Source: Cynocephalus volans
Taxonomy: Eukaryota; Chordata; Mammalia; Dermoptera; Cynocephalidae
NCBI RefSeq assembly: GCF_027409185.1
Contig: NC_084472.1
Span: forward strand, 91,094,427 to 91,158,426
Direction of reading: 5' to 3'
Length of the DNA stretch: 64,000 bases
A program made the translations under genes and the position numbers. This document shows positions 74 through 46,125 of this stretch, piece after piece. Within the stretch, counting starts at the first letter, position 1; every line of letters begins with the position of its first letter. The notes beneath the pieces are model-generated. The model was not told the DNA's origin and made no database searches. It saw only the letters and a program-made list of their open reading frames with translations.

Positions 74-169
74 AGTTTCAAAAACCTATATGCCTGCCTT
101 CCAAATATGATACAAATACAGCTTATACAAACTGTTGGATAACTGGATGGGGCTACACAAAGGAAAAAG
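74..169 (+). CDS. KLKB1: KLKB1 (plasma prekallikrein), third-last coding exon
   Basis: This 96-nt exon encodes part of the trypsin-like catalytic domain of plasma prekallikrein, the liver-made zymogen that factor XIIa activates and that releases bradykinin from kininogen. It starts after the acceptor ACAG at 70-73 and ends at the donor GTAAAG at 170. It reads in frame through [11 protein letters not shown], then [14 protein letters not shown], which matches recalled human KLKB1 (TNCWVTGWGFSKEKG) better than factor XI (TDCWVTGWGYRKLR). The last base begins a Gly codon finished by the next exon, so the splice phase agrees. The rest of the gene (apple domains, activation site, His and Asp exons) lies before the window. 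No lesion is seen. Confidence 0.93.
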
Positions 170-1926: not shown

Positions 1927-2066
1927 GTGAAATCCAAAATACTCTACAAAAGGCAACTATTCCTTTGGTAACTAATGAAGAATGCCAGAAAAGATATAGA
2001 GATTATGAAATAACCGAGCAGATGGTCTGTGCTGGCTATAAAGAAGGGGGAACAGATGCTTGTAAG
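1927..2066 (+). CDS. KLKB1: KLKB1 second-last coding exon (S1 pocket region)
   Basis: This 140-nt exon lies between acceptor TTCACAG and donor GTAATG. It encodes [20 protein letters not shown], then [22 protein letters not shown] and TDACK. The Asp codon at 2055-2057 sits at the position of trypsin Asp189, which sets cleavage after Arg or Lys. Cysteines at NEEC, MVCAG and DACK are the conserved disulfide partners. The exon ends in phase 0, directly before GDSGGP in the next exon. The homologous exon of the dead factor XI copy is at 23246-23383, where the Asp and two of these cysteines are lost. Intact and very likely translated. Confidence 0.95.
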
Positions 2067-2588: not shown

Positions 2589-2780
2589 GGAGATTCAGGT
2601 GGCCCCTTAGTTTGTAAGCACAACGGAATCTGGAATTTGGTGGGCATCACCAGCTGGGGTGAAGGCTGTGCCCGCAGGGAGCAGCCAGGTGTCTACACCA
2701 AAGTTGCTGAGTACGTGGACTGGATTTTAGAGAAAACATGGGATGATGATGGAGATGCTTTGCAGAAGTCATCAGCATGA
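2589..2780 (+). CDS. KLKB1: KLKB1 terminal coding exon with catalytic serine and stop
   Basis: The exon opens in phase 0 with [15 protein letters not shown]. The catalytic Ser codon is TCA at 2595-2597 and the preceding Asp194 equivalent is [23 protein letters not shown] follows, then [12 protein letters not shown], the usual C-terminal helix of the prekallikrein and factor XI pair. The tail [13 protein letters not shown] ends at TGA 2778-2780. It differs from the recalled human tail (QSSDGKAQMQSPA) but has similar length and ends in a similar SxA, so it supports KLKB1 over factor XI, which stops right after KTQAV. No frameshift or lost residue is seen. With the two exons upstream this completes an apparently functional protease domain end, although the earlier exons are not visible. 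Confidence 0.96.
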
Positions 2781-7110: not shown

Positions 7111-7692
7111 GGGATAGTAACTAATAAATACTTCTGGATAACCAAGGACATGGATTATCGTGCCTTCTATAGAACTTTTAGCCATTCTTCAAGGTCGATG
7201 GGAAAGCTCTTAATAGAAATGTATAGTTGTGTAAAACTCAGAAAAATATTTCACAAGCTTCCCTCTCTATAAACTGCAACAAGTCCCACCTCTGGAAGGC
7301 TCCCTCCATCACAAGGCCCCTTATTCTTCAGGGAACTGATCTTTTCTTTCTTCATTGCTTGTCATGCAACAGCTAAATGTGTCACTTCCCAGTTCTCCAC
7401 TTATGTGTTAGTATCCCAAGATATAAAGAAAACTATGAGAGCCCCATATTTTTCCATTTAAAAAATAATTAGAATTTCAGTGTTCACAAGTGGAATTTTA
7501 AAAAGCTCAGTTCCTTAGCATTAATCATATTCACATAAGCCTCTGAGGAAGTAACTTTAGAAAAAGGGAAACAATCTACAAGAACAGGGCACTTACAGTC
7601 CTCACTTTGTTTTCTATGCGTCCCCTAGCTCACAGCAGCTGCAGTCTGCTTTACAAATTAAAAGTATTTATTTTACAAATTAAAAAGACGTT

Positions 7693-7770
7693 GAAGAGCA
7701 ATATTAAAAAATCAGAAGTCTTGATTTGTCTCCCTGATGAGTTAGTTTTTTACAGAGCAATCTGATTGAT
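7693..7770 (+). repeat. Local ~75-bp repeat, copy 1
   Basis: Shares AGCAATATTAAAAAATCAGA, TTTGTCTC, CTGATGAGT and AGTTTTT in the same order with 8603-8683 and, less closely, 9545-9620. Family unknown. Confidence 0.75.
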
Positions 7771-8580: not shown

Positions 8581-8602
8581 TTGTGCAAATGAAAAAAACA
8601 TT

Positions 8603-8683
8603 CAAGAGCAATATTAAAAAATCAGAAGGTTTGTAATTTGTCTCACTGATGAGTCAGTTTTTCATAGAGCATTTTGATCAATG
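8603..8683 (+). repeat. Local ~75-bp repeat, copy 2
   Basis: The best match to copy 1: AAGAGCAATATTAAAAAATC, then CACTGATGAGTCAG. It starts 22 nt after the inverted-repeat element at 8505. Confidence 0.75.
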
Positions 8684-9177: not shown

Positions 9178-9233
9178 GATGATTTTATTATATCAAATGA
9201 TATGTTTCATTTTATTTGCCTCAGTTTCTGCTG
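9178..9233 (+). pseudogene. F11: F11 exon 2 relic: start codon and signal peptide
   Basis: After acceptor TTTGTAG the ATG at 9179-9181 opens MILLYQMICFILFASVSA, a hydrophobic secretion signal that aligns without gaps to recalled human MIFLYQVVHFILFTSVSG. Donor GTTAAGT follows. The last base starts the Glu codon completed by exon 3. This exon is intact. Confidence 0.9.
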
Positions 9234-9465
9234 GTTAAGTAGAGCTTTGTCTTAAGTATGTATGGAAAGTGCTTGGTTTTCTGACCTGTAGATTGGAAAA
9301 CAAGGCGGCACAAGCCCAGAGAGGGAAATCACTCTAGAGTCCCCACACACGTGGGAGAGTCCCATGCCATCTACTCCAGGGAAAAAAAATAGTTTTATTT
9401 ATTTTCCACTTAAGGCTCCAAGGGTTTTAAGCAAGGAAGGAAATTGGGGTAAAGAAATAATAGTA

Positions 9466-9522
9466 GGAATATATATGTATATCGATACTTGCATCTATAT
9501 CTATATCTATATCTATATCTGT
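9466..9522 (+). repeat. (TATATC)n microsatellite
   Basis: ATATATGTATATCGATACTT, then several CTATAT units. Confidence 0.9.
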
Positions 9523-9544
9523 ATAACACTTTTAAATAATATTT

Positions 9545-9620
9545 AAAAGCAATATTAAAGAGCAGAAGTCTTGGTTTATCTCAGTGATTAGTCAATTTTC
9601 CATAAGGCAGTCAATTCAAT
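9545..9620 (+). repeat. Local ~75-bp repeat, copy 3
   Basis: AAAGCAATATTAAAGAGCAGA, GTCTTGG, TTATCTCAGTGATTAGTCAA. More diverged than copies 1 and 2, and on the other side of F11 exon 2. Confidence 0.65.
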
Positions 9621-10139
9621 ATAACACACATGCACATACACAATGGCAATTTTGGACTGAAAAATGTGCACATATTCATACATGTTTATACATTTCAATA
9701 ACTTAACTACTGCTGTTAATTCTTCACCCTACATCATATCTACTAAATTTGTTTATAAATTATTTAACCAATATTCACTAGGCTATATTCGTGACACTGC
9801 AACAAAGATGGGGCAGTATAAGTATTTTTTTAGTTCCTACGTTTATTCTTTATTTAAAATAAAAACTTAAGCATTCCTTTAAAAGAAAACTTACGCATAA
9901 TAGACTTAATTTCTGATTCTGTTGCTAGTACTTTAAACACAGTAAATGTTTTTTTCTGGCATATGTAAAAAATGGCAAATCTAGATAAAAAGAATTAAAA
10001 TAAAATAAATTCCACCTAATGTATTTAACTATGCAGTTTTAATTTCATTTTTCTTTGTGACAAAGTTGTTATTCAGGTTATTATACTCCTTCCTTGTCAT
10101 TATTTTGAAATTGCATTATTATTTTATTAGTAAACATAT

Positions 10140-11590
10140 CAGAGCTAACTCAATTGACATATTTTAAACACTGGACCAAACAACTGCATATATACATATA
10201 TACGTTCTTTACACATAAATATGGAACATTTACAAAAATTGACAAGGTTATAAAACAATTCTCAAAAAATTTTAAAGGGTTGAAATTACACAGAGTATGT
10301 TGTCCAGTCACAGTGCTATTAAGCTAACAAATAACAAAAATACAACTGGAAAATTCCCCCAGTGTTTGAAAATTAAGTATACTCTTTTTAATAAACATGG
10401 GTCAAAGAAGAGATCACAATGGAAATTAGAAAATATATTGAGCTGATTGATAAGAATATGGCACAGCAAAATTTTAGGATATAGCTAAATTAGTCCTGAG
10501 ATCACATGCACAGACTTATATGTATACATTAGAATAGGGAAAAGTTAAAATTTAATAAGAATCCAGCTCAGGAAAGTAGAAAGAGAACAGCAAATTAAAT
10601 GCAAAGAAACTAGAAGGCGGGGGGGGGGAGGGGAACAGAGAAAATAGCAGAAATGAAGTAAAAAACAAACATACTTGAGGGCACTTCAAAAACTTCATGG
10701 AAAGATTTATATCATCTTTTAATCCTATTTTTCCACAAACTCTCTGATGTGCCCTTATATTAGAGAAGGTCAACAGAGGCACACTCTACAGCCCATTTTG
10801 TAAGGTCAGTATAGTCTTGATACCAAAACCTGGCATGAACATTATTTTTAAAAAAAGGCACAAGCCTTTTTTTCCCTCATAAACATACATGCAAATAATC
10901 ATAAACAAAATATGACCAAACTTAACTCAGAAGTATATCTAAAAAAAAGGGATGAGATAGTGACATAGTGACACTGTGACAAAGATGGGGTAGTTCCAGG
11001 AATGAAAAGTTAGTTTAACATGGAAAAATCAATAGATTCACTACTTCTGGGTCTATACCCAAAAGAAGTGAAAGCAGGGTCTTGAAGAGATTTGCACACC
11101 TGTGTTCATGGCACCATTATTCAAAATAGCCCAAAAGTAGAAGCAGTCCATGTGTCCATCAACAGAAGAACAGATAAACAAAATGTGGTACATACGTACA
11201 GTGGAATATTATACAGCCTTGAAAAGTAAGGAAATTCTGACACACGCTCCAACATGGGTAAGTCTTGAAGACATTATGTCAAGTGAAATAAACCAGCCAC
11301 AAAAGGATAAATACTTCCTGATTCCATTTACATAAGGTACTTGGAGCAGTCAATCTCATAGAGACAGAAAGAGGAATAGAGGTTACCAAGAACTGGGGGG
11401 TAGGGGGAAATGGAGAGTTAGTGTTTAATGAGTACAGACTTGCAGCTGGGGAAGACGGGAAAGTTCTGGAGAGTGATGGTGGTGATGGTTGCTTAACAAT
11501 GTAAATGTACTTAATGCCACAAAACCATTTAAAAATGGTTAAAATGGTACATATTATGTTATGCATATGTCACCACAATAAAAAATTAAA
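10140..11590 (+). mobile_element. Old L1 (L1M type) ORF2 and 3' end remnants
   Basis: ORF2-like phrases such as TTGATACCAAAACCTGGCA and AGTTTAACATGGAAAAATCAA are followed at 11040-11590 by the late ORF2 and 3' end: GGGTCTATACCCAAAAGAAG, CCAAAAGTAGAAGCAGTCCA, GTGGAATATTATACAGCC, then the 3'UTR with CATATGTCACCACAATAAAA. Frames are broken throughout. Confidence 0.8.
10679..10754. mobile_element. 76-bp inverted-repeat MITE-like element, copy B
   Basis: GGGCACTTCAAAAACTTCAT to ACTCTCTGATGTGCCC, exactly 76 nt like copy A, in the opposite orientation, lying inside old L1 sequence. Confidence 0.75.
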
Positions 11591-11599
11591 TTTAAATAA

Positions 11600-12060
11600 T
11601 TTTAAAAACCAACGCATGCAGAAAAATATTTGATAAAATTCCATTCATAATAAAAACTCTTAGCAAACTCAAAATAAAAGGGGATTTTCCTCATCCGTTA
11701 AAGGATATTTAAAACAAACCAAGCCAAATGTCTTCAAGAAACTTAATACTTAATAGTGAAATATTGAAAATGTTCCCAAGGGATTAAGAAGAAGACAAGA
11801 ATACCCACCATTACATTCATTAAACATTGTACTGGAGATCCTAGTCAGTGCAATAAGGAAAGAAAAAGAAATAGAAGGTAAAGATTTAAAAAATAAATAA
11901 ACTAATTTTTCATAGATGATATGATTGTATACCTAAAAGAAAATCCAAAATAACCAACATGTAAATTATCTGAGTAAATTAAATTAGCAAGAAGTCTAGA
12001 TACAAAGTCAAAATATAAAAATAAGCACTTGGCAATTCACACACACAAAACAAATTAACT
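11600..12060 (+). mobile_element. Old L1 ORF2 (reverse-transcriptase region) fragment
   Basis: GAAAAATATTTGATAAAATT, GGAGATCCTAGTCAGTGCAA, TAGATGATATGATTGTATAC and AATTAGCAAGAAGTCTAGAT are classic ORF2 positions. It comes after a 3' end, so it belongs to a second insertion. Confidence 0.8.
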
Positions 12061-12507
12061 GGCTCTTACTGCCACTAGAAGCTGTATTTGCATTTTGAAA
12101 ATCAATCTGCTTTGTGAAATTAAATGATCCAATTAGTATGGGATATATGAATCTACTAAGAAAATTAGCAAATATATTAAATATATAAAACATATTTAAT
12201 TTATCAAATAACTAAAATTTTTCTTAAAAGTAATATTTTAGTGTCAAATGATAGCTTTCCACCAAAAGGTGGGATTTGCATGGTCACTGGGAATATTTTG
12301 AAGTGAGAATAGACTCTCATTACTAGGCGGATTGCTATACAGTTTGGTTGGGAGCAACACAAAACTTGAGGAGAGGAGACAAATCCCAAGTCATTCTTCG
12401 GCTAGTTGCTGATTACGGAGAAAATCATGCTATATGAAGAGGCTGTATGTGGAGAACTTAGCAGGCATATATTTTGAGGAGAGTCTATAGCGGGGGTGAT
12501 CAGCCCT
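12061..12507 (+). other. F11: F11 intron 2 unique stretch
   Basis: No repeat or exon recognised. Short open frames on both strands only. Confidence 0.5.
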
Positions 12508-13236
12508 CTTTTCTCCCATGGATCCCTTTGGTTGATTAGTGAACATTATTGGCCTCTTTTCTAAGAATAGCTTTTCTAAATGCATGAAGTAAAAAAATAT
12601 TAAAAAATGGGCAAAAGAGCTAAATAGGCATTTCTCTAAGGAAGATATCCAAATGGCCAACAGACATATGAAAAAATGCTCAACATCACTCAGCATCCGG
12701 GAAATGCAAATCAAAACCACATTGAGATACCATCTAACTCCAGTTAGGATGGCTAAAATCCAAAAGACTGTGAACGATAAATGCTGGCGAGGCTGCGGAG
12801 AAAAAGGAACTCTCATACATTGTTGGTGGGACTGCAAAATGGTGCAGCCTCTATGGAAAATGGTATGGAGGTTCCTCAAACAATTGCAGATAGATCTACC
12901 ATACGACCCAGCTATCCCACTGTTGGGAATATACCCAGAGGAATGGAAATCATCAAGTCGAAGGTATACCTGTTTCCCAATGTTTATCGCAGCACTCTTT
13001 ACAATAGCCAAGAGTTGGAACCAGCCCAAATGTCCATCATCAGATGAGTGGATACGGAAAATGTGGTACATCTACACAATGGAATACTACTCAGCTATAA
13101 AAACGAATGAAATACTGCCATTTGCAACAACATGGATGGACCTTGAGAGAATTATATTAAGTGAAACAAGCCAGGCACAGAAAGAGAAATACCACATGTT
13201 TTCACTTATTAGTGGGAGCTAAAAATTAATATATAA

Positions 13237-13286
<50 letters not shown>

Positions 13287-13830
13287 CGGGGGGGGGGGGG
13301 AGAAGATATAACAACCACAATTATTTGAAGTTGATACGACAAGCAAACAGAAAGGACATTGTTGGGGGGGAGGGGGGGAGGGAGAAGGGAGGGAGGTTTT
13401 GGTGATGGGGAGCAATAATTAGCCACAATGTATATCAACAAAATAAAATTAAAAAAGAAATATATATATATATAAGATTACCAAATAAATAAATTCTTTT
13501 TAACATTTACTTGCACATTTTTTGTGGGATACAGATGTGGTTCTTATTAAGACATTATGTGACAAGATTTCGTGGTAGGTCTAAAGCTGCACTGTAGTAA
13601 TTCCCACCAAACTAGTAGTAAGTGATAATGGTACTTTGACATATCTGCAAGTGTGGTAATCGGTGATTACTATTATGACAAAGTCACAGACACTATGAAT
13701 ACTGATGTGGTTTGTCGCGTTCATTAATAATAGAAAGATATGCAACATTTCAGTTGGTGGTTAGTGAAAATACAGATGTAATTTATCCTATTCTAATTCA
13801 TGGACTACCTAAATCTTGTAAGCCTCTTGT
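12508..13830 (+). repeat. Old mammalian interspersed repeat, copy 2, split by an L1
   Basis: The left part, 12508-12594 (CATGGATCCCTTTGGTTG, TTTTCTAAATGCATGAAGT), and the right part, 13466-13830 (TACTATTATGACAAAGTCAC, ATTTCAGTTGGTGGTTAGTG, AATTCATGGACTACCTAAAT), belong to the same family as 600-1035. The L1 3' end at 12600 sits between them. Confidence 0.6.
12600..13460 (+). mobile_element. Young 5'-truncated L1, copy 1 (ORF2 C-terminus and 3'UTR)
   Basis: An open frame at 12653-13222 encodes 189 residues of the L1 ORF2 C-terminal segment: [60 protein letters not shown]. The 3'UTR has a (CA)n tract at 13239-13283, a G run at 13288-13301, a purine block with long G runs, and AATAAAATTAAAAAA at the end. 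It is nearly identical to the elements at 29671 and 45488. The reverse-transcriptase and endonuclease parts are missing, so it cannot move by itself. Not a host gene. Confidence 0.95.
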
Positions 13831-14719
13831 GATAGTTTTGACTGCTTTGTATCTACCTTCTTTCCTACATATTTACTGGCATGATGTTTGTTACAACAAT
13901 ACATATTAGAATTATATTTTATCACACCTAAAGTATTTTTATTTTTGTTCTCTCTCTATTTTTTAATATTAAGAAGACCAAGCGGTATATAGCAGTACCT
14001 CTCAATGAGAAAATGCCAAGATTAAAAACCACAACTTTTGACTCAGTGACTAAGGAACAAATGATCTAAAAAAAAGCCATACACGATCTAGAATATTAAA
14101 TATCTCTTTCTAGAAACAAAAGAAATTTTAAATCTTATGAAACTTGGCTTTAAAAAAACACAACTTATTTGTGATTTCAGCTAAAGGGGATTCAGTAATT
14201 TTTCTGAGAGTCTAAAGTTCCTGTTGGTACATTAGCCCATCTTAAATGGTGAGGCAATGTAATGCGTTATCACTTCCAGGGCCACCGACACTACTGAAAA
14301 GTGATTGCTCTGGAGCCTTTGTTTCATACAAGCCCAGGGTTGGATAAAGAGAAGCAGTGGGGAAAAGGAGAAGCAGAAGGCCAATTTGAGACTCAGATGG
14401 GATCCTAAAGAGCATCTTTTGCTAGTAAAGTTCCGAGAAATAATTCTATTACCCACAAAGCACTCCAGGTCTCCAAGACAATCACTCACAAGCACAATTC
14501 CATTTAGGCAAATGTGCTAAGCTATTTCGTGATTTTCTTTTCCATCGGTGGCTGTTCATGCAAGAAACTAAAATGAAAGTGTTAATTGCCTTAATTTCCA
14601 AGTTCAGGCATGTTGCCTGATAAGTACACCTATGTGCTTTGCCTTTGTGAGATTATTGCTTAATTAGATATGTGCCTGCTAACATCAAAAAATAATACAT
14701 GCCATGTACTGCATCACAG
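13830..14719 (+). other. F11: F11 intron 2, 3' part, nothing recognised
   Basis: AT-rich, no repeat with a readable signature. Possible L2 or MIR debris is too degraded to call. Confidence 0.5.
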
Positions 14720-14882
14720 AATTTGTGACTAAGCTGCTCAAAGATGCCTACTTTCAAGGAGGAGATATTACTACTATTTTTACACCAAAAGCCAACTCCT
14801 GCCAAGTAGTCTGCACCTACCACCCAAGATGATTGCTCTTCACTTTTATGGCTGGATTATCATCTGGAGATCCTCGTGAATG
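14720..14882 (+). pseudogene. F11: F11 exon 3 relic: first half of apple 1, with TGA
   Basis: 163 nt between CATCACAG and GTAAAT. It reads [20 protein letters not shown], then [20 protein letters not shown] at 14830-14832, and LLFTFMAGLSSGDPREW. In the family the stop position is Cys (HPRCLLFTF). Two further conserved cysteines are changed (ECV to EFV, TCF to AYF), so the apple 1 disulfides could not form even without the stop. Confidence 0.93.
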
Positions 14883-15139
14883 GTAAATGTGTATGTTCCT
14901 ACACAGAGGAAATGGACTTTACAGGATGATTAATAAGTTGCATCCACCAAATTTTATAAAATTTGATGTTAACAACTAAAAAATAAATTGTCCTTCAATT
15001 GAAATATTAAATATTACAAAAAAAGATGTGCCTCACAGTATAGACTTTCCAGTCTCTCTTTATGCTTCTTAATCATTTTGGTTTTTGCTTTTCTATTGAT
15101 TAATGATAATTGATATGATTTAAACTGGAACTTCCCCCA

Positions 15140-15490
15140 ACTATTTTATTAGGAAAAAATTAAACATTTGTAAAGATGATACGAAACAATAGTACAATGA
15201 TCACCTGCCACCACCAAGACTCTGCCATTTTTTCTTAACCTACCTATACATGACTATATGTTTAACCGTTTTAAGTAACTTTAAAATATCATGATATTGC
15301 ACCCCTAAATAATTCAGCATGCGTTAACCTACACAAAAGAAATAAAAAATTTAATAAGAATTCCTTTATGTCATCTTGATTGTTTCCCAAATGTAATTTA
15401 TAGCTGTCAGCCTTAATTTTATCCAGATTCACAAATTGCATTTGCTGGTTTTGTCTCTATAGCTATATTTTAAAAATTTTAGAACATTCC
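15140..15490 (-). mobile_element. Old L1 (L1ME-like) 3'UTR fragment, antisense
   Basis: The order AACAATAGTACAATGATCAC, TATCATGATATTGCACCCCT, AATTCAGCATGCGTTAACCT, GATTGTTTCCCAAATGTA and AAATTGCATTTGCTGGTTTT follows the antisense 3'UTR of old L1M elements. Confidence 0.6.
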
Positions 15491-15619
15491 ACCCATCATT
15501 TTTGTTCCATGTTGAACTTGAAAATTCAGTAATAAAGCCTTTCTGCAGAATTCAGTTTTTAACATCTTTGTGGATTACTGCTGTGCTCATAGATATTTAC
15601 ATAGCACTCTGAAATTATA

Positions 15620-15690
15620 TTTATACAAAAAGCCCATGGAGAGATTTATATTATCTTTTCATTCTATTCTTCCAGGAACTTTTAAAATTT
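15620..15690. mobile_element. Inverted-repeat MITE-like element, copy C (degenerate)
   Basis: ACAAAAAGCCCATGGAGAGA, TTATCTTTTCATTCTATTCT and TCCAGGAACTTTTAAAA match copies A and B loosely. Confidence 0.5.
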
Positions 15691-16149
15691 TACTATTCTA
15701 GAATCTAGAACAGGTATTACCAAATGTTTCTTAATAAGGCAGAGATAAATATTTTTGGATTTTGGGGTCCAAAGACAAAATCGAGGATATTATATAAGTG
15801 CCATTATATAATATGTCACCATTTAAAATAAATATAACCATTTGAAAATATAAAAACCATTCTTAGCTCATGGGCTGTATTAAAACAGGCAGATTTGGGG
15901 CTACATTGAACCAGCAGGCCATAGTTCACCCAGTCTTGTTTGTTTCCTGCTGGGAAGGAGTATTACACATGGTCTCTTAAATGTAGGGATGCTGGAATGA
16001 CAAACTCACAATCCTGCTAAGAAAATATTTGTTTTGGCAAGAGATAAAGCAGTTTGTTTCCTTCTCTTTGGCTTTCTGTGTGCTGACTTTGAAGACCCGT
16101 TATTTTAAACATAAATTTCCACCCAGTGATGTTATTGTTTTTAAAATAG

Positions 16150-16256
16150 GTTTACTTGTGTCCTGAAAGACAGTGTTAGAGAAATGCTGCTAAGGGTGAA
16201 TATGGCAAGAGCAATTTCTGGGTATTCTTTCAAGCAATGCCCACACCAAATAAATG
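16150..16256 (+). pseudogene. F11: F11 exon 4 relic: second half of apple 1
   Basis: 107 nt between AAAATAG and GTAAGA. It reads [20 protein letters not shown], then [15 protein letters not shown], aligned without gaps to recalled human [35 protein letters not shown]. The frame is intact, with only missense differences. Confidence 0.93.
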
Positions 16257-16931
16257 GTAAGATGTCTTGGGAGAATTAATAAGTACTAGTTATTGTGCTG
16301 TATACAGAAAGTTGCACCAGATATGGTTTCATGGCTATAAAACAAAACAGTGCTATGTGGAAATAAACTCTTCCAGTGAAGTTCTTTTGGTGTAGAGCAA
16401 AAATTAATATATATACATACCTGCCCCCCATTAACATAACTATAGTTTATTAAAATTTCTTTACCTCCTAGAGTGACATATCTTACTACCTCAGTTTTCA
16501 CCATTCATTTATTTTCTTTTCCTTCCCAACATAAAATTTTACATGAAAGTCTTTATTAAACATCCTAATTCCAACCAAAGGGAGCAAATATAAAGGTTGA
16601 AGTGACACTTGTCTTAATAGTGAAATAGATACTTGAATACATTAATTAGTGAATTAATTAATCAGTGGAGTTATGATGAGAGAGGCTAGGCCAGAAAATC
16701 AAAATGCAAGGTTACAGCGCTAGAATTGTTGAAATGTAAGAAGGACATTGGTATTCTTTTACTGCTACCTATTCCTGAGAATAGCAATTAAGCAGATTAA
16801 AATAAAAACAAAGGACTTCTAAGGAAAAGTGGGAGAAAAAGTTAAAAGAGTAAGTGAGAAGAGACAGTTGCTAAGGTAGAAATACTTCTTATTTCTGGGA
16901 GGTAGCCATATCGTTCCACGTTTATTTTCAG
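16257..16931 (+). other. F11: F11 intron 4, nothing recognised
   Basis: AT-rich with normal GT and AG ends. A 72-codon minus-strand frame at 16286-16504 shows no family features. Confidence 0.6.
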
Positions 16932-17069
16932 CTTGCAACAAAGGTGTTTATATGGACCTAGACATGACAGGGACGAGCTATAATGGCTCTGTTAACAAGA
17001 ATGCTCAAATGACATCCACTGTCACTTTTTTACATATGCCACAAGAAGGTTTCCCATCGTAGAGCATCA
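16932..17069 (+). pseudogene. F11: F11 exon 5 relic: first half of apple 2, 22-nt deletion
   Basis: 138 nt between TTTTCAG and GTGTTG; the family length is 160. It begins CNKGVYMDLDMTGTSYNGSV, then NKNAQ. The family segment ECQERCTD is then missing. Homology resumes one frame later as DIHCHFFTYATRRFPIVEH. In the original frame a TAG appears at 17060-17062. The gap is near 17008 and removes two conserved cysteines. Confidence 0.93.
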
Positions 17070-18277
17070 GTGTTGAGCCCAAGCACATTAGAGTATCTTA
17101 ATGGAAAACACAATGGTGATTCACTAATTTTTTTTCATCAACTTGATGCCAAATCTTATTTTTAACCACTAAAAGTCATTTCTATGACAGTACTATAGTT
17201 TTCATTATGAAAAGTACATTTAAAGCCCGATTTGGATGCATGAATTCATGGTAAGGAATCTGCCTTTTAATGACACTGTTATAAAAAATTTATATATGCT
17301 TAACCCATACCTTAGCTAATTTCTAAAATGCTTCCTTTTTAAAGTGGCAATTTTGAAACAGCTATAATCGGCCTGATTGGCAGTACCCTTTCCAGCCTAA
17401 AAGGTGTTACAGCCTAACTCTATAGAATCAAAAATAAAAACTTACTCATCTATCTGTTTACATAACAGTTCCTTACCTGAGACAAAATAACAGAAGCCCA
17501 TGTGTAAAGTTGTATTCTGCTTTTTCCTGGATTTTGAAATATTTCAGGGATAAATCTATCATGTAAGAATATAAAAATGATCTGATCTCTAATAACTAAC
17601 CCTATGTTATCCTTTTTACAAATTTATTAAGAAAATATATTATAAATTTTTATATTTATAAATATTTGAGATGGTCTAGATTTGCATAATAAATTATACT
17701 TATCTGAAATCCAATGACAAAAGCAAAATAAGTTCAAATCACTAACATTTGGATCTTAATACTCTGCTCTCCACAGTCACAAAAAACAGATAAGTAAAAA
17801 GCAAATGAAGAATGAAAGATTTAGTTCAAAAGCAACAAAAATAAAAAACCACAACCCCCCAAATTAGTAATTGGTCTTCTATGGCTGGCTTTAACTCAGC
17901 TCAGATGACATCTCTGAGACTTAACACAATGTGAACAGCAAGCCAGAAAACTGGGAGTTCCTAGGCGTTATAAAAAAAGTTAGTGTTGAAACTGAGAAGG
18001 GCTTGAGAAGTCATCAATTCATACTCTCCTACTCTTCACGTCCTCGCCCCTCTGAAGCTGTCGTTTTACTGATGAAGAAATCAAGGTAAAATTCACAAGA
18101 CCACCAGGGGCTGGGACTCCAGTCCAGCTGTTCAGCCCTCAGAGGAGAGCTTTTCAGAGTAACTCCTTGGCTATAACACCCAAGTCATCTCCCTAAATGG
18201 GAATTTCTTACCATCTTATGTTTTTTCCTACTTGCAATTGGAAAAATAAAACACTTTTTCACTTTCTTTTCCTTTGG
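17070..18277 (+). other. F11: F11 intron 5
   Basis: A MIR-like stretch is possible at about 18000-18150 (TTTACTGATGAAGAAATCAAGG). Otherwise nothing is recognised. Confidence 0.55.
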
Positions 18278-18387
18278 TAACATTTGTCTGTTGAAGCACT
18301 CCCTAACAGAGACACTGGCCAGAATAATGAAGCTCAGTAAAGTGGTGTCTGAATTGTCATTGAAATCCTGTGCACTTTCTAATCTGG
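18278..18387 (+). pseudogene. F11: F11 exon 6 relic: second half of apple 2, acceptor lost
   Basis: The 110-nt homology block encodes [20 protein letters not shown], then [16 protein letters not shown], aligned without gaps to recalled human [36 protein letters not shown]. The frame is open and the donor GTAACT is present. The dinucleotide where the acceptor AG must lie (18276-18277) is GG, so normal splicing into this exon is not expected. Confidence 0.9.
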
Positions 18388-18739
18388 GTAACTATCGCTT
18401 TCTTAATGAGGTAGTTTAGCCATTAAATGTGTATGTTGCTGATAATATATATAATAGATCTAACTTAGGATATCAATTTATGTTTACAGATAAAATGGGG
18501 CCAATATCTTTTATCTTCTTCATGTGATAGATTTCATTATGCCCTATGTAGTTTAGACCTTATATTTAAATCTCAAGTTTAAAATTATCACTTCGCTTTT
18601 TCTAAATTAAAAAAAAAAAATTTAAAGATCTTGGGATAAACTTACATTTTTTAATATGGAATTTACAAATACAGCGACTGGAATTTTCATGGTTCTTCTG
18701 GTGAACTGATTTCCTGTCACGGTTTCTTCTGTCACACAG
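18388..18739 (+). other. F11: F11 intron 6, nothing recognised
   Basis: A short AT-rich intron ending in GTCACACAG. Confidence 0.7.
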
Positions 18740-18878
18740 CTTGTATTAGGGACATTTTCCTAATACAGTGCAGTGTTGTGGCCCCAGATGCTTTTGTCTG
18801 TCCCCGTGTTTGTACTTACCATCCCGATTGTTTGTTTTTCACCTTCTTCTCTCAAGAATGGCCAGAAAAACCTCAAAG
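18740..18878 (+). pseudogene. F11: F11 exon 7 relic: first half of apple 3, 21 nt short
   Basis: 139 nt between CACACAG and GTAAGG, against a family length of 160. It reads [20 protein letters not shown], then [26 protein letters not shown]. Recalled human has PNTVFADSNIDSVM between the ACIRDIF and APDAF anchors where this copy has LIQCSVV. The nucleotide trace TTTTCCTAATACAGTG suggests a 1-nt loss followed by a loss of about 20 nt, which together restore the frame. Confidence 0.92.
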
Positions 18879-20438
18879 GTAAGGAGTTACAATTAAGAGT
18901 AATTTGTTTTTGTTTTTGTGTTTGTTTTGGCAGCTGGCCAGTACAGGGATCTGAACCCTTGACCTTGGTGTTACTATCCCACACTCTAACCAACTCAGCT
19001 AACCAGCCAACCCAAGAGTAATTTGTTATCTTTTAAGAACAGCTGATCAAAATCTATCATTAAAAATTCTGAGTGAATAAAACTTTAATCTAAATGTCTG
19101 TATAGATAAAAGTTGCAAAGAACTCCTAGATCCTTTCTCTTTCTATTCCCCACCTACTGAACACAAATCCAGCATTACCCAGGACTCTCGTTTTTCTTTA
19201 GCTTAGGGAGGTCTCTGCCTTCAGCAAAGGGAGAGTTGATATAGAATATTTCCATCATTGCAGAAAGTTCCATTGGAAAGCTCTGCTCTAGACTGATTTT
19301 ATGCTACTTAGTAAAAGGCAGTCCCTTCTGGGAAGATACTGGCAGGGTCTGGAGTGAGTGATAGATTTTCCTTACCCCCTTATAAACCTGGAGCAACCCT
19401 GAATAGGAGATTTCTTCTACGTAGCATGAAAATTCTTGAGTCTTTGAGATAGTCTTGGGAGGGTTGAAAGGAAGGAAATAAAGAAGGAAGATACTAGGAA
19501 CGCTGACAATAGAGCAAGCTCTGAACATTTTTTACAGAGCCAGGTGGCTTAGTTTTGAAAATGTTTACAACTCATGAGTCACAGAATGTGACTCGTGATT
19601 CACGAAGGGTAGTTCCCAAACAGGACAAGTTTCGCTATTAAATGCCAACATGTGATGACTTTACCTTCCACGTGTCCTGTAAAAACTGTTGTTTTTTTGC
19701 ATAAAAAATGTTTTACCAATTTCTCCTCTTTACCTCTTTGCTGATGAGGGACAAATCTGTGATGTCATTCCTATTCATTCAATCAGAGCACTGTGCTTTA
19801 CAATGGCCCTGAGAACGGTCTGACTGCTCTTCTCTTTTCATAGACAAACACTTTACAATATAAAAAATCCAATACAAACAGGACTTCGTTTTACCTTTTG
19901 TGCTTTTCTCCAAGGGTACAAAACCCTGCCACTCAAAGATAAAGACAGATTTGGGTCACCACACCATCTTTTCTTCCACATGTGGGAAACACGAGTCTTT
20001 CTCTCTTTAGTCTGATTGTGTCTCCCTTAGTTTCTGCACATCACGGGATCACCTGAGCCACCATTTTCCCAGGATCTTCGACATGACGATTCTTGTCCTG
20101 CTGGTGCCTTTGTGCCTGAGAGAATGACAAGCCTCTCGGAACATTTTATTTGGAAAATAAACGTTATACCCTTCTAAATTTTACAGAAATTTACTTCAGT
20201 TAAAAGAAGTGCTATAGGATGGAATTATAATAAATGTATTTTTTGGAATGTTGAGAAATAACTTTAAAAGAATCAATTCTGTGATAGAGCATAAAGATAT
20301 AAAAGTGAATTTGTGTACCTGTCACCTTAGTCTAAATTGTGCCATGCTAATTAATGACCTCCAAACCGTGCCCCCCCAAAGGTGTTTTTCTTTTATATGT
20401 TTTATATGCTGTATTTATATTTCCCCTTTTTTTGTTAG
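18879..20438 (+). other. F11: F11 intron 7
   Basis: Contains a tRNA-derived SINE at 18909-19013 with a clear target-site duplication, just after the donor. The rest (19028-20438) is not recognised. Confidence 0.7.
18895..19027 (-). mobile_element. tRNA-Ile-like SINE (CYN-like) with target-site duplications
   Basis: On the minus strand the body has TAGCTGAGTTGG, a perfect pol III A-box match, then GTGTGGGATAGTAACACC, GGTTCAGATCC in the B-box position, and GGCCAGCTGCC before an A/C-rich tail. The 14-nt duplication AAGAGTAATTTGTT flanks it at 18895-18908 and 19014-19027, without a mismatch. The layout follows tRNA-Ile with an extra 3' part. It resembles colugo CYN SINEs as I remember them. Confidence 0.85.
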
Positions 20439-20548
20439 AAATCTTTGTCTCCTTAAGACCTCTGAAAGTAGATGACCAAGTACACACATTATAAAGAACA
20501 AAGCTCTTCCTGGTTTTGGTCTACAAAACTGCAGGCACAGCATCCCAG
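20439..20548 (+). pseudogene. F11: F11 exon 8 relic: second half of apple 3, with TGA
   Basis: Exactly 110 nt between TTTGTTAG and GTGAGC. It reads [11 protein letters not shown], TGA at 20473-20475, then PSTHIIKNKALPGFGLQNCR, HSIP. Recalled human is [36 protein letters not shown], so the stop replaces a Leu codon (TTG to TGA is one step). Confidence 0.95.
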
Positions 20549-20658
20549 GTGAGCGACTAAAGTACTTTCTTCTGATTGAGATCAACACGTCTTGAGGAGG
20601 TCGATGAATGCTAACTAAGGTTGTGTTTCTCACATCTGACGTGTAATTTACTACCTAG

Positions 20659-20818
20659 TGTTCTGTCATTCTTCATTGTACCATGACACTGATTTCTCAG
20701 GAGATGAACTGGATGTTGTTGATGTGCAAGGTCATGAAGCCTGCCTGGAAATCTGCACCAATGCCATCTGCTGCCAATTTTTCACCTATTCCCCATCTCA
20801 GGAATCGTGCCACGAAGG
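20659..20818 (+). pseudogene. F11: F11 exon 9 relic: first half of apple 4
   Basis: Exactly 160 nt between CTACCTAG and GTAGTA. It reads [20 protein letters not shown], then [34 protein letters not shown]. The frame is open. Apple 4 carries the factor XI dimer interface. An extra Cys (NAICCQ against recalled NAVRCQ) is odd and would disturb pairing. Intron 8 before it is only 110 nt. Confidence 0.95.
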
Positions 20819-20909
20819 GTAGTAAGACACACTGCAGGTTACGTAGATTCCCTTTTCCCTTCTCTTTGTGAGGTGCATTATGTTCATGCCATTTCGTTTC
20901 CAACTGTAG

Positions 20910-21016
20910 GAGCAAATGTTACTTAAAACTTTCTTCAAATGGGTCTCCAACTCAAATACTTCATGGGAGAGCTGGCATCTCTGGGTATACATGAAGCTTA
21001 GGTAAAATGGATAATG
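20910..21016 (+). pseudogene. F11: F11 exon 10 relic: second half of apple 4, with TGA
   Basis: 107 nt between CAACTGTAG and GTATGA. It reads [30 protein letters not shown] at 20992-20994, then SLGKMDN. Recalled human ends GYTLRLCKMDN, so a Leu codon became TGA and the final apple 4 Cys became Gly. Intron 9 before it is only 91 nt. Confidence 0.95.
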
Positions 21017-23245
21017 GTATGATGTCACTTGAGAAACTATATCTGAAGGAGTTATTCTATGTGAATATATCATAACTGAGGGAGCTGATAGCCACAGAGG
21101 GGAGAAAATCAGTAAAACAGTGAATTTAGCAATTTTCTGTTTTTTTCATTCCTATCAGCCAAGCTGGTCATATTTTAAAGGTAAATATTAGATCCTGACT
21201 AAACTCTACATTGCCAAGTATTAATGGAATGTGTGTTGCAATTTGGCACATTTATACAAGTGGCATTTCATGGTGAGACCCAGGCAAAGCCAACAAACTT
21301 AGGTCTGATTCTTACTATCAAGGTCAATGTTCTTTCTTATTATTCTTGATAGTTGAAATATCATCCAGTACCTTAGTTAATCAAATTACTCATTTTCTTC
21401 CCTCTTGATCTTTAAATGAAATATAAATAACCATAATATATTTTAAAAATCACATACCTATTTGAGAAATACCAGAGTAGCTCTTTTTCAGGGCCATGAT
21501 TCTTTCACATTCCCTGCAAGGGTTTTGCAGACCTTCGAATATTGGCAAAAGTTACAGTAAAACCTTGTTAATTTGTAACAAGTGTGGTAAGGTGAAAATA
21601 AAAAGATTGTCTAGATTATGCAAGATCTATAATAACAAAAATTATAATAAACATCAGATCAGCAGTCTTTCCATCCTAGCGGCCTGTTTCTGAGCATAGT
21701 AGCAAGGGATGGTTTGTAGGCAAGTAGGATTTTTCTAAGGAACAGAATCACAACAGGAAAGAACAGACTGTGAACACTTCTCCCTAAATTACCATCATAA
21801 CCTATTAGGGCTTTACGATTTACATAAAGCTTCATGTTTTGGGACTGTTTGTTGCTTAATGTTCAGTATTATAATGCGCTGTAAGGTGCAACTGATATTT
21901 AATGAATAAAATGAAAACAACAATCATGCTTTGTAATAGTTTTCAAAGTATAAAAATATTTTGTGTCAGATGATTTGCAGTACTGAGAAGGTGAATCAGT
22001 CCTTAATTTTCTGAGAACTTTGTTTTATAGAACATACAGATGGCATATCACATTCAAAGGTTATAGAATACAACCTATAGAGGTACAGATTGTAGCTACA
22101 GGAGAAAATATAAGACAAAGGAAAAAAACTTATGTCTTTTTAGTGCACCTTCTTGAAGTAAGTGAATTAAATAGCTGGGTTTTACTGCACTATGTTAGAT
22201 GTAATAACACCCTAATATGAGAGGGAAAATCTAACGGAGATGTTTATCGTGTTCTGTACTGCAACTGGTCTACAACATAACTTTCTGAAGACAGACAGCA
22301 ATGCTGTTAAAAGAAACATTTTTAACACAAAATGTGACGCTAAATGCAGATATTTTCAGCATTTTGTTCAAACTGAGAAACAAAATAGAGCGAACATCAA
22401 GATCGATGACCTGTACCTAGTAAGGTCTTTACTGAGTTATTCATAACAGGCCTTAGTTACTGCTTCCCCATTAATATTTCTAAGCCTTACCTTTAGGCCA
22501 CTTCCCCATTTGCAAACTATAAAGGCTTCCCAGAAATTTCAGAATATAGTTAAAATCTTAATTCCAGAACTAATCTCCACCCTATTCACTCTTAAATGAG
22601 GAAACTATGTTCAGGCAAACACATCATGGTTGTTCCTACCTTAGCTTGCTGTTAGCTCTTATTTCCTTCAACAATCCCTTTTCTTGTTCTCTCCTTCTAT
22701 TTTCAAGTCTGCCCCAGAATTATACACTCATTTTCCTACTGAGGAAAGAAAGGCCTAGACAGGTTGTTCTATGCCTGCAAAACTAGCACATGGACCATCT
22801 AGGACTTGACTTTTGACTAAGTGACTCTTCTGCTACCTTTACACTCCTCCATTAGGTAAGGATGTAAAACTTCTCTGATCCTCTGAGCCTTGCTATTATT
22901 TTTTTAAAGCAGAATGTAAAGTTGAATTTAAGCTGTTCTTAAAAAGTAGAAAAACCTGGGAAGGAATTTGACAGTAAAAAAAAAATTAAACAACAACAAC
23001 AAAAAAAAAAACAGACAAGAAACCAGAATGCTAATTTATTCACAATCTGAACTACACTTTTGACGTAGATCTGGATGGTATTAATGCCAGGTGTCACTGG
23101 TTGTGCTGTGGTAACCTTCTACACTTAACATATTCTGCAGGAATGAACCTGGGGAGTGGAATACAGTGATTCTATGGTATGATTTTGATTTTAAATGTAT
23201 GTATATTGTTATTCCTCTAACAAAACAAAAAAATTTTTTTTTCAG
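21017..23245 (+). other. F11: F11 interval where exons 11-13 should be: none found
   Basis: This 2.2-kb stretch should hold three exons encoding the Arg-Ile-Val-Gly activation site, the His57 loop (TAAHC), the Asp102 segment (DIALLKL) and the CWVTGWG segment. I searched by eye for these in the plus-strand frames and found none. The sequence is AT-rich with small open frames (22020-22220, 22240-22446) of no recognised family and A-rich tracts at 22975-23015. A deletion is the simplest reading; extreme decay is the alternative. Confidence 0.7.
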
Positions 23246-23383
23246 ATGAAATACAAAATACCCTCCAAAAAGCCAAGATAACTTCGGGGACAAATGAAGA
23301 ATACCAGAGAAGATACAGAGGGCATACAACAACCAATAAGATGATCTGTGTGGGCTACAAAGAAGGAGGGAAGGAATTATGAG
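23246..23383 (+). pseudogene. F11: F11 exon 14 relic: S1-pocket exon, frameshift and donor loss
   Basis: Acceptor TTTTTTCAG is intact. It reads [20 protein letters not shown], then [25 protein letters not shown] and TGA at 23380-23382. [10 protein letters not shown] and RYRGH are factor XI features. The conserved NEEC Cys is Tyr here. The family end DACK plus GT donor is replaced by GAATTATGAGGAAAC: about 2 nt are lost, Asp189 and its Cys are gone, and no GT remains. Confidence 0.93.
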
Positions 23384-23664
23384 GAAACAGAGTGTTCTCA
23401 ACCACTTAAACATACTCAAAGTAGAATGTTGAATGCATTTTAAAATGCAGTCTTCTGCCAATGAGCAGAAAACACAGGTATTTGTTTTCCTTATACTGAA
23501 ATCTAAAAGGGACTGCTTGCTTTGATTCAGTCGATCAGGTTCTTTGAAAAGTATTAAAGGGCAGGGACAGAAGTTTAAGTGAAATCACCCTGAGCAAAAT
23601 GTATTTAAGATGGGAAGTGTCTGAACTGATCTGTGCACCTTTTCTTTTCTCCTCTGTGTTATAG
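23384..23664 (+). other. F11: F11 last intron
   Basis: A 281-nt stretch ending in the intact acceptor TGTTATAG. Its donor is destroyed. Nothing else recognised. Confidence 0.8.
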
Positions 23665-23856
23665 GGAGTTTCAGGGGTGGGGGGCCTGTCCTGTACCCAT
23701 GACAAGATCTGGCATTTGGTGGGCATCACAAGCTGGGGCGAAGGCTGTGCTCACAGGGAAAGGCCAGGCATTTATACCAATGTGGTCGAGTACATGGACT
23801 GGATTTTGGAGAAAACTCAGGCAGTGAGAGTTCCCAGGTGCAATCTAACTCCCTGA
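23665..23856 (+). pseudogene. F11: F11 terminal exon relic: catalytic Ser region broken, stop lost
   Basis: It reads [20 protein letters not shown], then [52 protein letters not shown] and KTQAV are factor XI rather than prekallikrein. The family GDSGGPLSC has gained one codon and lost Asp194 (GTT at 23668) and the Gly-Gly-Pro oxyanion end. After GCAGTG the normal TGA is missing, probably by a 2-nt loss, and the frame runs on nine more codons to TGA 23854-23856. Confidence 0.95.
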
Positions 23857-24606
23857 AGAGCAAAGCAGATTACTCCCTAGAAGAGGGTTTTGATTTCACT
23901 GAAAAAAGACACTGTACTGTCATGTTTCCTCCACAGTAACAAACTGGAGGGGCTTGATGTTTGTAAGAGAATACCAAACGAAAGCAGTCATTCTCAAAAC
24001 TCCCATTCTGTGATAACTGTAGGTTGTTTTCAGTATCCAGTCCCTTGCTTTTTGATCACACTTCTACTGAGCCAAAGAAATGCTGTAAGGCGGTATTTTT
24101 GAAGATCGATATCAAGGCAGATACAGCAGAAGAGAATCAAGAAGTGGCACCAAGAGATCAGCAGGACTGCTAAAAGAAGCCACCATAAAAAGATTCGTTC
24201 AACAGAAAATGGGAACTAGAAGAAAGGGAACAAAGACAGTCATCATCCATTTGCAGGAATCACTGATCTCCTGTGTGCACTCGTCTCTTTCCGAAAGAAA
24301 GGATGTGACCAAATTCAGTGGCAGGTTTTCAGAGCAGTCAGGAAATCTTGTCATGTCAATGTTTAAGATTTTTTTTTTCATATCAGTTTGGGTAGACACG
24401 AGCTCAGAGTGAGTGTGAATGAATGCTCAGAAATCCTGGATGAGAGAGGATAATGAGCAGCAAGTCACCTGGAAGGGGTACCTTAGGGGACAAATCCAAA
24501 GATATACTTGCCCAGAAAACTATCTTGTGTGTAGTTTTGTATTTGTACTGTATATTTATTTGGAGTGGTTTGGGAGGGAGAGGCTTACAAACAGCTGGAT
24601 AATAAA
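23857..24606 (+). other. F11: F11 former 3' untranslated region and poly(A) signal
   Basis: About 750 nt after the relic stop, ending in AATAAA at 24601-24606, with a second AATAAA 17 nt further on. No coding signal. Whether any transcript is still made is unknown. Confidence 0.55.
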
Positions 24607-28850: not shown

Positions 28851-29670
28851 GTCAGACCCCACGGGTCAATTTCCTCCACAGAGGTTTTCTTACTGGCTCT
28901 GTGTTACCTTAGCCCCGACTTGCTTAGATTTGCCCAACACACTTTAAGCGTACTCCAACCATAGAGCCCACAGGGGCAAAACCAGGTTTTGTGGGGGGGA
29001 AGCTTATGCTATTTTGTGGCTGTGACATAGAAAGTCTCCTAGGGACAGAACTTGAATCAATATTTGGTTGTCCACTTCATGGGCACAGAGAGAAAACCTG
29101 GGGTACGAATCTGCCCTCACTCGTGGACAGTGTCTCATAAGTTGATCAGCTGGTTAGGGACTTGAAAAAAAAGATGAAATTGGAAAATTGGTGACAGGAA
29201 AGTCTGGGAAAGGAGGATGCAGGCGCGACTCTCGAAAGGGGCGGTGTGACATCTCAGGATCTTCCTGACGTGCCCACCAGGGAGCGCAGTGCTTCGACTG
29301 CAGCCTCCGGAGACGCTGAGAAATAACCTGAAGCTTTAGAATGTCATTATCCTCTCAGTCCCGCGTACCCGATCTTCAGCTTGGAGCCCTAGCGTTTCCA
29401 AGAGGTACTGCAGTCCATCTGAGCTTCAGCGCCCTGTAACAAAATTATGATTCAGCACTACTAACTGCAGATACTTAGGGTAGGAGATCACGTGGTGTAG
29501 AGCTTGAAAAGTTGCAGAGTGTCCCTTTGTGTCCAGCTCCCACGAAGCCCATTTAGAGGCCAGCGCCACCCCTCACCGCCTAGGCACTGCAGGAATGGCC
29601 TGACATGCCCCCCCCCCCCCCAGTTTAGCCACTACACCATTAAGTTAAAATCAGCTCCTATAAGAATTAC
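28851..29670. other. Intergenic, with a CpG-denser patch at 29221-29430
   Basis: No exon seen. About 14 CpG dinucleotides lie within 210 nt (GGCGCGAC, GGGGCGG, GACGTG, GAGCGCAG, TCCGG, GACGC, CCGCG, CCCGA and others), against very few around it. A C homopolymer follows at 29608-29621. Confidence 0.6.
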
Positions 29671-30215
29671 AGCATCCGGGAAATGCAAATCAAAACCACA
29701 CTGAGATACCATCTAACCCCAGTTAGGATGGCTAAAATCCAAAAGACTCTGAACGATAAATGCTGGCGAGGTTGCGGAGAAAAAGGAACTCTCATACATT
29801 GTTGGTGGGACTGCAAAATGGTGCAGCCTCTATGGAAAATGGTATGGAGGTTCCTCAAACAATTGCAGATAGATCTACCATACGACCCAGCTATCCCACT
29901 GCTGGGAATATACCCAGAGGAATGGAAATCATCAAGTCGAAGGTATACCTGTTCCCCAATGTTCATCGCAGCACTCTTTACAATAGCCAAGAGTTGGAAC
30001 CAGCCCCAATGTCCATCATCAGATGAGTGGATACGGAAAATGTGGTACATCTACACAATGGAATACTACTCAGCTATAAAAACGAATGAAATACTGCCAT
30101 TTGCAACAACATGGATGGAACTCGAGAGAATTATATTAAGTGAAACGAGTCAGGCACAGAAAGAGAAATACCACATGTTCTCACTTATTGGTGGGAGCTA
30201 AAAATTAATATATAA

Positions 30216-30249
<34 letters not shown>

Positions 30250-30480
30250 CGGGGGGGGGAAGAAGATATAACAACCACAATTACTTGAAGTTGATAGACA
30301 AGCAAACAGAAAGGACATTTTTGGGGGCGAGGGGGGGAGGGAGAAGGGAGGAAGGTTTTGGTGATGGGGAGCAATAATCAGCCACAATGTATATCGACAA
30401 AATAAAATTAAAAAATAAATAAATAAATAAATATAAATAAGTAAATAAGTAAGTAAGTAAATAAATAAATAAATAAATAA
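29671..30480 (+). mobile_element. Young 5'-truncated L1, copy 2, with target-site duplication
   Basis: Starts inside ORF2 ([18 protein letters not shown]) and is open to the normal ORF2 stop at 30199-30201. The same (CA)n, G-run and purine-rich 3'UTR follows, and the tail is a variegated AAAT/AAGT repeat (30410-30480). AAGAATTA flanks it at 29662-29669 and 30482-30489. Nearly identical to copies 1 and 3. Cannot move by itself. Confidence 0.95.
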
Positions 30481-45487: not shown

Positions 45488-46125
45488 GTGGGACTGCAAA
45501 ATGGTGCAGCCTCTATGGAAAATGGTATGGAGGTTCCTCAAACAATTGCAGATAGATCTACCATACGACCCAGCTATCCCACTGTTGGGAATATACCCAG
45601 AGGAATGGAAATCATCAAGTCGAAGGTATACCTGTTCCCCAATGTTCATCGCAGCACTCTTCACAATAGCCAAGAGTTGGAACCAGCCCAAATGTCCATC
45701 ATCGGATGAGTGGATACGGAAAATGTGGTACATCTACACAATGGAATACTACTCAGCTATAAAAACGAATGAAATACTGCCATTTGCAACAACATGGATG
45801 GACCTTGAGAGAATTATATTAAGTGAAACAAGTCAGGCACAGAAAGAGAAATACCACATGTTCTCACTTATTGGTGGGAGCTAAAAATTAATATATAAAT
45901 TCACACACTCACACACACACACAAAAAAAAAACGGGGGGGGGGGAAGAAGATATAACAACCACAATTACTTGAAGTTGATACAACAAGCAAACAGAGCGG
46001 ACATTGTTGGGGGGAGGGGGGAGAGGGGAAGAGAGGGAGGTTTTGGTGATGGGGAGCAATAATCAGCCACAATGTATATCAACAAAATAAAATTTAAAAA
46101 GAAAATAAAAATAAAAATAAAACGG
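45488..46125 (+). mobile_element. Young 5'-truncated L1, copy 3
   Basis: Starts in ORF2 at [16 protein letters not shown] and is open to the stop at 45882-45884, followed by the same (CA)n, G-run and purine-rich 3'UTR. It lies inside the LTR. CAAAATTGC before it (45479-45487) and AAAAATTGCC after it (46148) are likely the target duplication. Confidence 0.92.

Follow-up and report, generated by a model that had tools for sequence, protein, structure and literature searches.

The gene for coagulation factor XI (FXI), F11, has very probably decayed from a single-copy orthologue into a unitary pseudogene in the colugo Cynocephalus volans. The locus was examined in a window of 64,000 nucleotides (i.e. 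positions 91,094,427 to 91,158,426 of contig NC_084472.1, forward strand) that contains zero N bases and opens with the 3' end of KLKB1, the gene for plasma kallikrein. Eleven F11 coding exons (i.e. exons 2–10, 14 and 15) lie in order at 9178–23856 on the plus strand, beginning ~6.4 kb downstream of KLKB1 and on the same strand. The state of each exon, and of the interval from which exons 11–13 are absent, is as follows:

9178..9233, plus strand: F11 exon 2, start codon and signal peptide, free of lesions
14720..14882, plus strand: F11 exon 3 (first half of apple domain 1), TGA at FXI Cys56
16150..16256, plus strand: F11 exon 4, frame and splice sites intact
16932..17069, plus strand: F11 exon 5, 138 bp against 160 expected; 22-bp deletion with frameshift, visible as a frame jump in tblastn
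18278..18387, plus strand: F11 exon 6, acceptor GG in place of AG (18276–18277)
18740..18878, plus strand: F11 exon 7, 139 bp against 160 expected; net loss of 21 bp in frame, seven residues gone
20439..20548, plus strand: F11 exon 8, TGA at FXI Leu264
20659..20818, plus strand: F11 exon 9, frame and splice sites intact
20910..21016, plus strand: F11 exon 10, TGA at FXI Leu371; Cys374 lost
21017..23245, plus strand: interval of F11 exons 11–13, exons absent (FXI residues ~379–526)
23246..23384, plus strand: F11 exon 14, TGA near the end; 139 bp against 140 in KLKB1; AA in place of donor GT
23665..23856, plus strand: F11 exon 15, GDSGGP changed to GVSGVGG; normal stop lost, frame continuing to a TGA at 23854–23856

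An earlier note on this DNA had described at least eight lesions in F11, and this number was reached with TGA codons in exons 3, 8 and 10, the 22-bp deletion in exon 5, the exon 6 acceptor, the TGA and donor of exon 14, the loss of exons 11–13 and the altered GDSGGP motif of exon 15. Stops, indels and splice losses were each confirmed at F11 exons. Beyond these eight, the normal stop codon has been lost and exon 7 is short by 21 bp in frame, a shortening that can be parsed as deletions of 1 and 20 bp when set against human codons. Expected exon lengths were taken from sister exons (the 160 bp of exon 5 from exon 9), from KLKB1 and from the protein alignment rather than from a reference gene. 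The TGA of exon 14 probably arose from a 1-bp deletion, and the exact end of this exon is placed tentatively. A Cys29 to Tyr change was discarded as a lesion, tyrosine being present at this position in several other mammals.

The identity of the remnant was established with human FXI as the query, a sequence identical (625 of 625 residues) to PDB entry 9pq1_A. In tblastn, F11 pieces were matched at 9179–23826 on the plus strand, with expect values (E) of 2e-10 or lower for ten of the eleven exons. Exon 2, a short signal-peptide exon, was matched at only E 0.043, but both the start codon and the splice sites are in place. As a control for chance, the reversed window gave best matches of E 0.49 for KLKB1 and 4.3 for F11, and the best F11 match outside the locus in the true window was at E 0.50 (33486–33379). 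When coordinates were anchored on splice sites, an AG acceptor was present in ten of the eleven exons and a GT donor in nine of ten, the exceptions being the GG acceptor of exon 6 and the AA found at the placed end of exon 14. A read-through translation, with X at stops, scored 728 bits against human FXI and 465 against plasma kallikrein. A tree of 32 rows placed the remnant in the F11 clade with a support of 100 and in a Euarchontoglires group with a support of 98; this tree was built by a quick method with only Shimodaira–Hasegawa-like approximate likelihood ratio (SH-aLRT) support and resolves the remnant no further than Euarchontoglires. A duplicate of KLKB1 was ruled out by the difference in score and by the tree, and a processed copy by the introns between the coding exons. 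Human F11 exon boundaries and the KLKB1–F11 gene order served for comparison. The locus is the resident F11 orthologue, which follows KLKB1 immediately on its 3' side and shares its strand; the introns, the position and the clade all uphold the account in the earlier note of eleven exons, in order, of a resident gene.

The absence of exons 11–13, which the earlier note did not mention, takes away the activation site as well as two catalytic residues of the protease, His and Asp. With 64 queries for these exons (i.e. human FXI and 63 of 304 collected proteins), no match overlapping 21017–23245 was better than E 3.9. The sole strong match of these queries in the window was exon 13 of KLKB1 itself (E 3e-14), and the next best (E 0.038; 11095–11223) lay in an L1-like repeat. 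This search ruled out that the exons are present but hidden by divergence. A similar structure was observed in a factor XI-like model of Elephantulus edwardii (P0025, 465 aa), in which exon 10 joins exon 14 directly, the only such case among the 83 models having both motifs; the explanation is either a gap in the assembly or that these exons were lost independently.

From the ATG of exon 2, the reading frame meets its first stop after 55 residues. In an exon-skipping trial that omitted at most eight of the ten exons following exon 2 (omission of nine or ten being outside the trial), the longest product was 125 aa, and rescue by exon skipping was ruled out on this basis. A working FXI needs an activation site and an intact catalytic domain, whereas here exons 11–13 and their activation site are absent and GDSGGP is altered to GVSGVGG. 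Judged by its sequence, the locus is unable to make FXI and is beyond rescue by one simple event. It is likely that no FXI protein is produced in the animal, because translation of any transcript would stop after those 55 residues, of which a third belong to the signal peptide, and the protease would be missing.

Decay extends to the residues that remain. At 153 scorable sites that are invariant in 37 other eutherian FXI proteins, the remnant exhibited 22 changes, spread over ten of its eleven exons. These 37 proteins were human FXI and 36 picked by hand among the best 120 of 310 protein matches; Callospermophilus, Elephantulus, Ursus, Dasypus and Choloepus were left out of the alignment. When each of the 37 was left out in turn, between 0 and 11 changes were observed at 144–164 sites, with a median of 1. 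The maximum of 11 belonged to Miniopterus, the next highest value being 5. For the FXI of Miniopterus natalensis (P0075), five of the 11 changes fall between residues 307 and 326 and Cys374 is lost; this looks like either a gene model with a local frame shift or a gene in decay. In the tree, the remnant had the longest end branch (0.26), as compared to a median of 0.11 and to ~0.13 for the colugo KLKB1 lineage. With 22 of 153 sites altered against a median of 1, and with the longest end branch, constraint on the remaining F11 sequence is relaxed.

Several observations weigh against a unitary loss. Exons 2, 4 and 9 carry no lesion and the deletion in exon 7 preserves the frame. The invariant-site comparison favours those intact species for which a close relative is also included (i.e. 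human and orang-utan, two whales, two hamsters); lineages lacking one offer a fairer standard and nevertheless remained low, at 1–5 changes (Tupaia 1, Loxodonta 1, Orycteropus 2, Erinaceus 2, Dugong 4, Tamandua 5). That no colugo FXI stands among the best 120 of the 310 protein matches to the remnant carries little weight, since proteins shorter than ~256 aa are not candidates and broken genes are passed over by annotation pipelines.

A rival reading is that colugos possess a second, working F11, the present locus being a dead copy from a lineage-specific duplication. The tandem arrangement of the paralogues KLKB1 and F11 lends this some plausibility, but the remnant occupies the ancestral position, immediately after KLKB1. 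When eight mammalian FXI proteins were used as queries, the 39 kb downstream within the window yielded no further F11 (best E 0.65). A colugo FXI of at least 256 aa would be expected near the top of the list of protein matches to the remnant; none was present among the best 120 of 310, and the plasma kallikrein of Galeopterus was present in the same collection. A second copy is excluded only indirectly and appears improbable; that F11 is a unitary pseudogene and that C. volans lacks FXI are likewise inferences.

It is highly unlikely that the remnant still functions, whether through a non-coding transcript or through a short peptide of apple domains. Splice sites are largely kept (nine donors of ten, ten acceptors of eleven) and exons 4 and 9 are clean, which could be read in this way, but the early stop, the 125-aa limit on skipping products and the altered invariant sites in ten of the eleven exons speak against it. 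That errors of assembly or sequencing imitate lesions in a working gene is scarcely credible: a collapse or false join could remove exons 11–13, but eight or more lesions of various kinds spread over 9 kb of a window without N, clean KLKB1 exons in the same window and 22 altered residues among 153 otherwise invariant ones are not what sporadic errors would be expected to produce.

For a unitary loss of F11, a rough age may be derived. The 22 changes, if neutral, represent ~0.07 substitutions per site, with a 95% interval of 14.1–32.1 changes (~0.044–0.104 by interpolation). At a mammalian rate of 2.2e-9 substitutions per site per year, the loss would date very roughly to ~32 million years ago (20–47), an interval that omits uncertainty in the rate and in which some changes may predate the loss. 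Crown Dermoptera originated at least 15 million years ago according to Emerling et al. (PMC7613276). A loss older than this origin should be common to both colugo genera, and so the loss of F11 is predicted in all living colugos. These probably descend from an ancestor that lost FXI 20–47 million years ago, before the genera split, and that kept plasma kallikrein.

The ancestral colugo F11 would have decayed to a unitary pseudogene with the adjacent paralogue KLKB1 staying under selection. Without FXI, activation of factor IX would rely on tissue factor–factor VIIa, and the thrombin–factor XI feedback loop would be gone. FXI deficiency in humans is mild and FXI knockout mice are viable; this loop may be dispensable, because human deficiency is mild. 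As KLKB1 is in frame in the part seen, release of kinin via plasma kallikrein could persist. Either drift or advantage may have caused the loss.

Inherited FXI deficiency is known in people, cattle and dogs, where the same gene is without function; those cases are alleles within species, in contrast to a lineage-wide dead gene. FXI is also a target of new anticoagulants. If the loss holds, a mammalian order has been without FXI for millions of years, a natural long-term test of its cost and of adjustment of the cascade, and colugos are natural FXI-null mammals. Loss of F12 and KLKB1 in cetaceans was reportedly described by Huelsmann et al. in 2019. FXI proteins of Globicephala and Eubalaena are among the protein matches listed for the remnant. 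A table of coagulation proteins that covers seven species (a monotreme, a marsupial, cetacean and other placental groups) shows FXI as present in every mammal group, and marks factor XII and plasma kallikrein as absent from cetaceans (PMC9643190). Cetaceans resemble colugos in the loss of contact-system proteases in an order-level mammalian lineage, with factor XII lost through accumulated nonsense mutations (PMC9643190). They differ in that factor XII and plasma kallikrein are gone and FXI remains; colugos would be the mirror image, with FXI lost and the seen part of KLKB1 intact. Colugos and cetaceans together, if the loss is real, would show that parts of the contact system are separately losable. 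Old pseudogenes have also been described in colugos for the melatonin genes AANAT and ASMT, with inactivating mutations common to the three colugos examined; this concerns another pathway, and the text makes no mention of F11 (Emerling et al. 2021, PMC7613276). No report of colugo F11 loss was found in the literature within a scope that excluded most subscription papers and supplementary gene-loss tables, where it may be listed.

The portion of KLKB1 inside the window comprises three exons (13–15) out of 15. These final three exons, at 74–2780 on the plus strand, are all intact, with an open frame, AG/GT splice sites and a normal stop, which agrees with the description of this end in the earlier note:

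74..169, plus strand: KLKB1 exon 13, AG/GT kept, open frame
1927..2066, plus strand: KLKB1 exon 14, 140 bp, AG/GT kept
2589..2780, plus strand: KLKB1 exon 15, GDSGGP and normal stop codon present, intact

Across the three exons, 140 of 142 residues were identical to a partial plasma kallikrein of Galeopterus variegatus (P0241), and the next-best protein by score exhibited 87% identity over the same stretch. With only two differences in 142 residues, this match indicates that the DNA is from a colugo.

Repeats were also observed around and within the F11 remnant. A pair of direct repeats of ~90 bp, 85% identical, is located between KLKB1 and F11 (7676–7766 and 8586–8678). The intron between F11 exons 7 and 8 contains a tRNA-like short interspersed element (SINE) at 18935–19008 on the minus strand (Rfam tRNA, 32.2 bits), which looks like the tRNA-Ile-derived CYN SINEs of colugos. 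Three L1 3' ends (i.e. 12691–13492, inside the intron between F11 exons 2 and 3, 29670–30452 and 45488–46121) are mutually 93–95% identical, and activity of this L1 family looks fairly recent.

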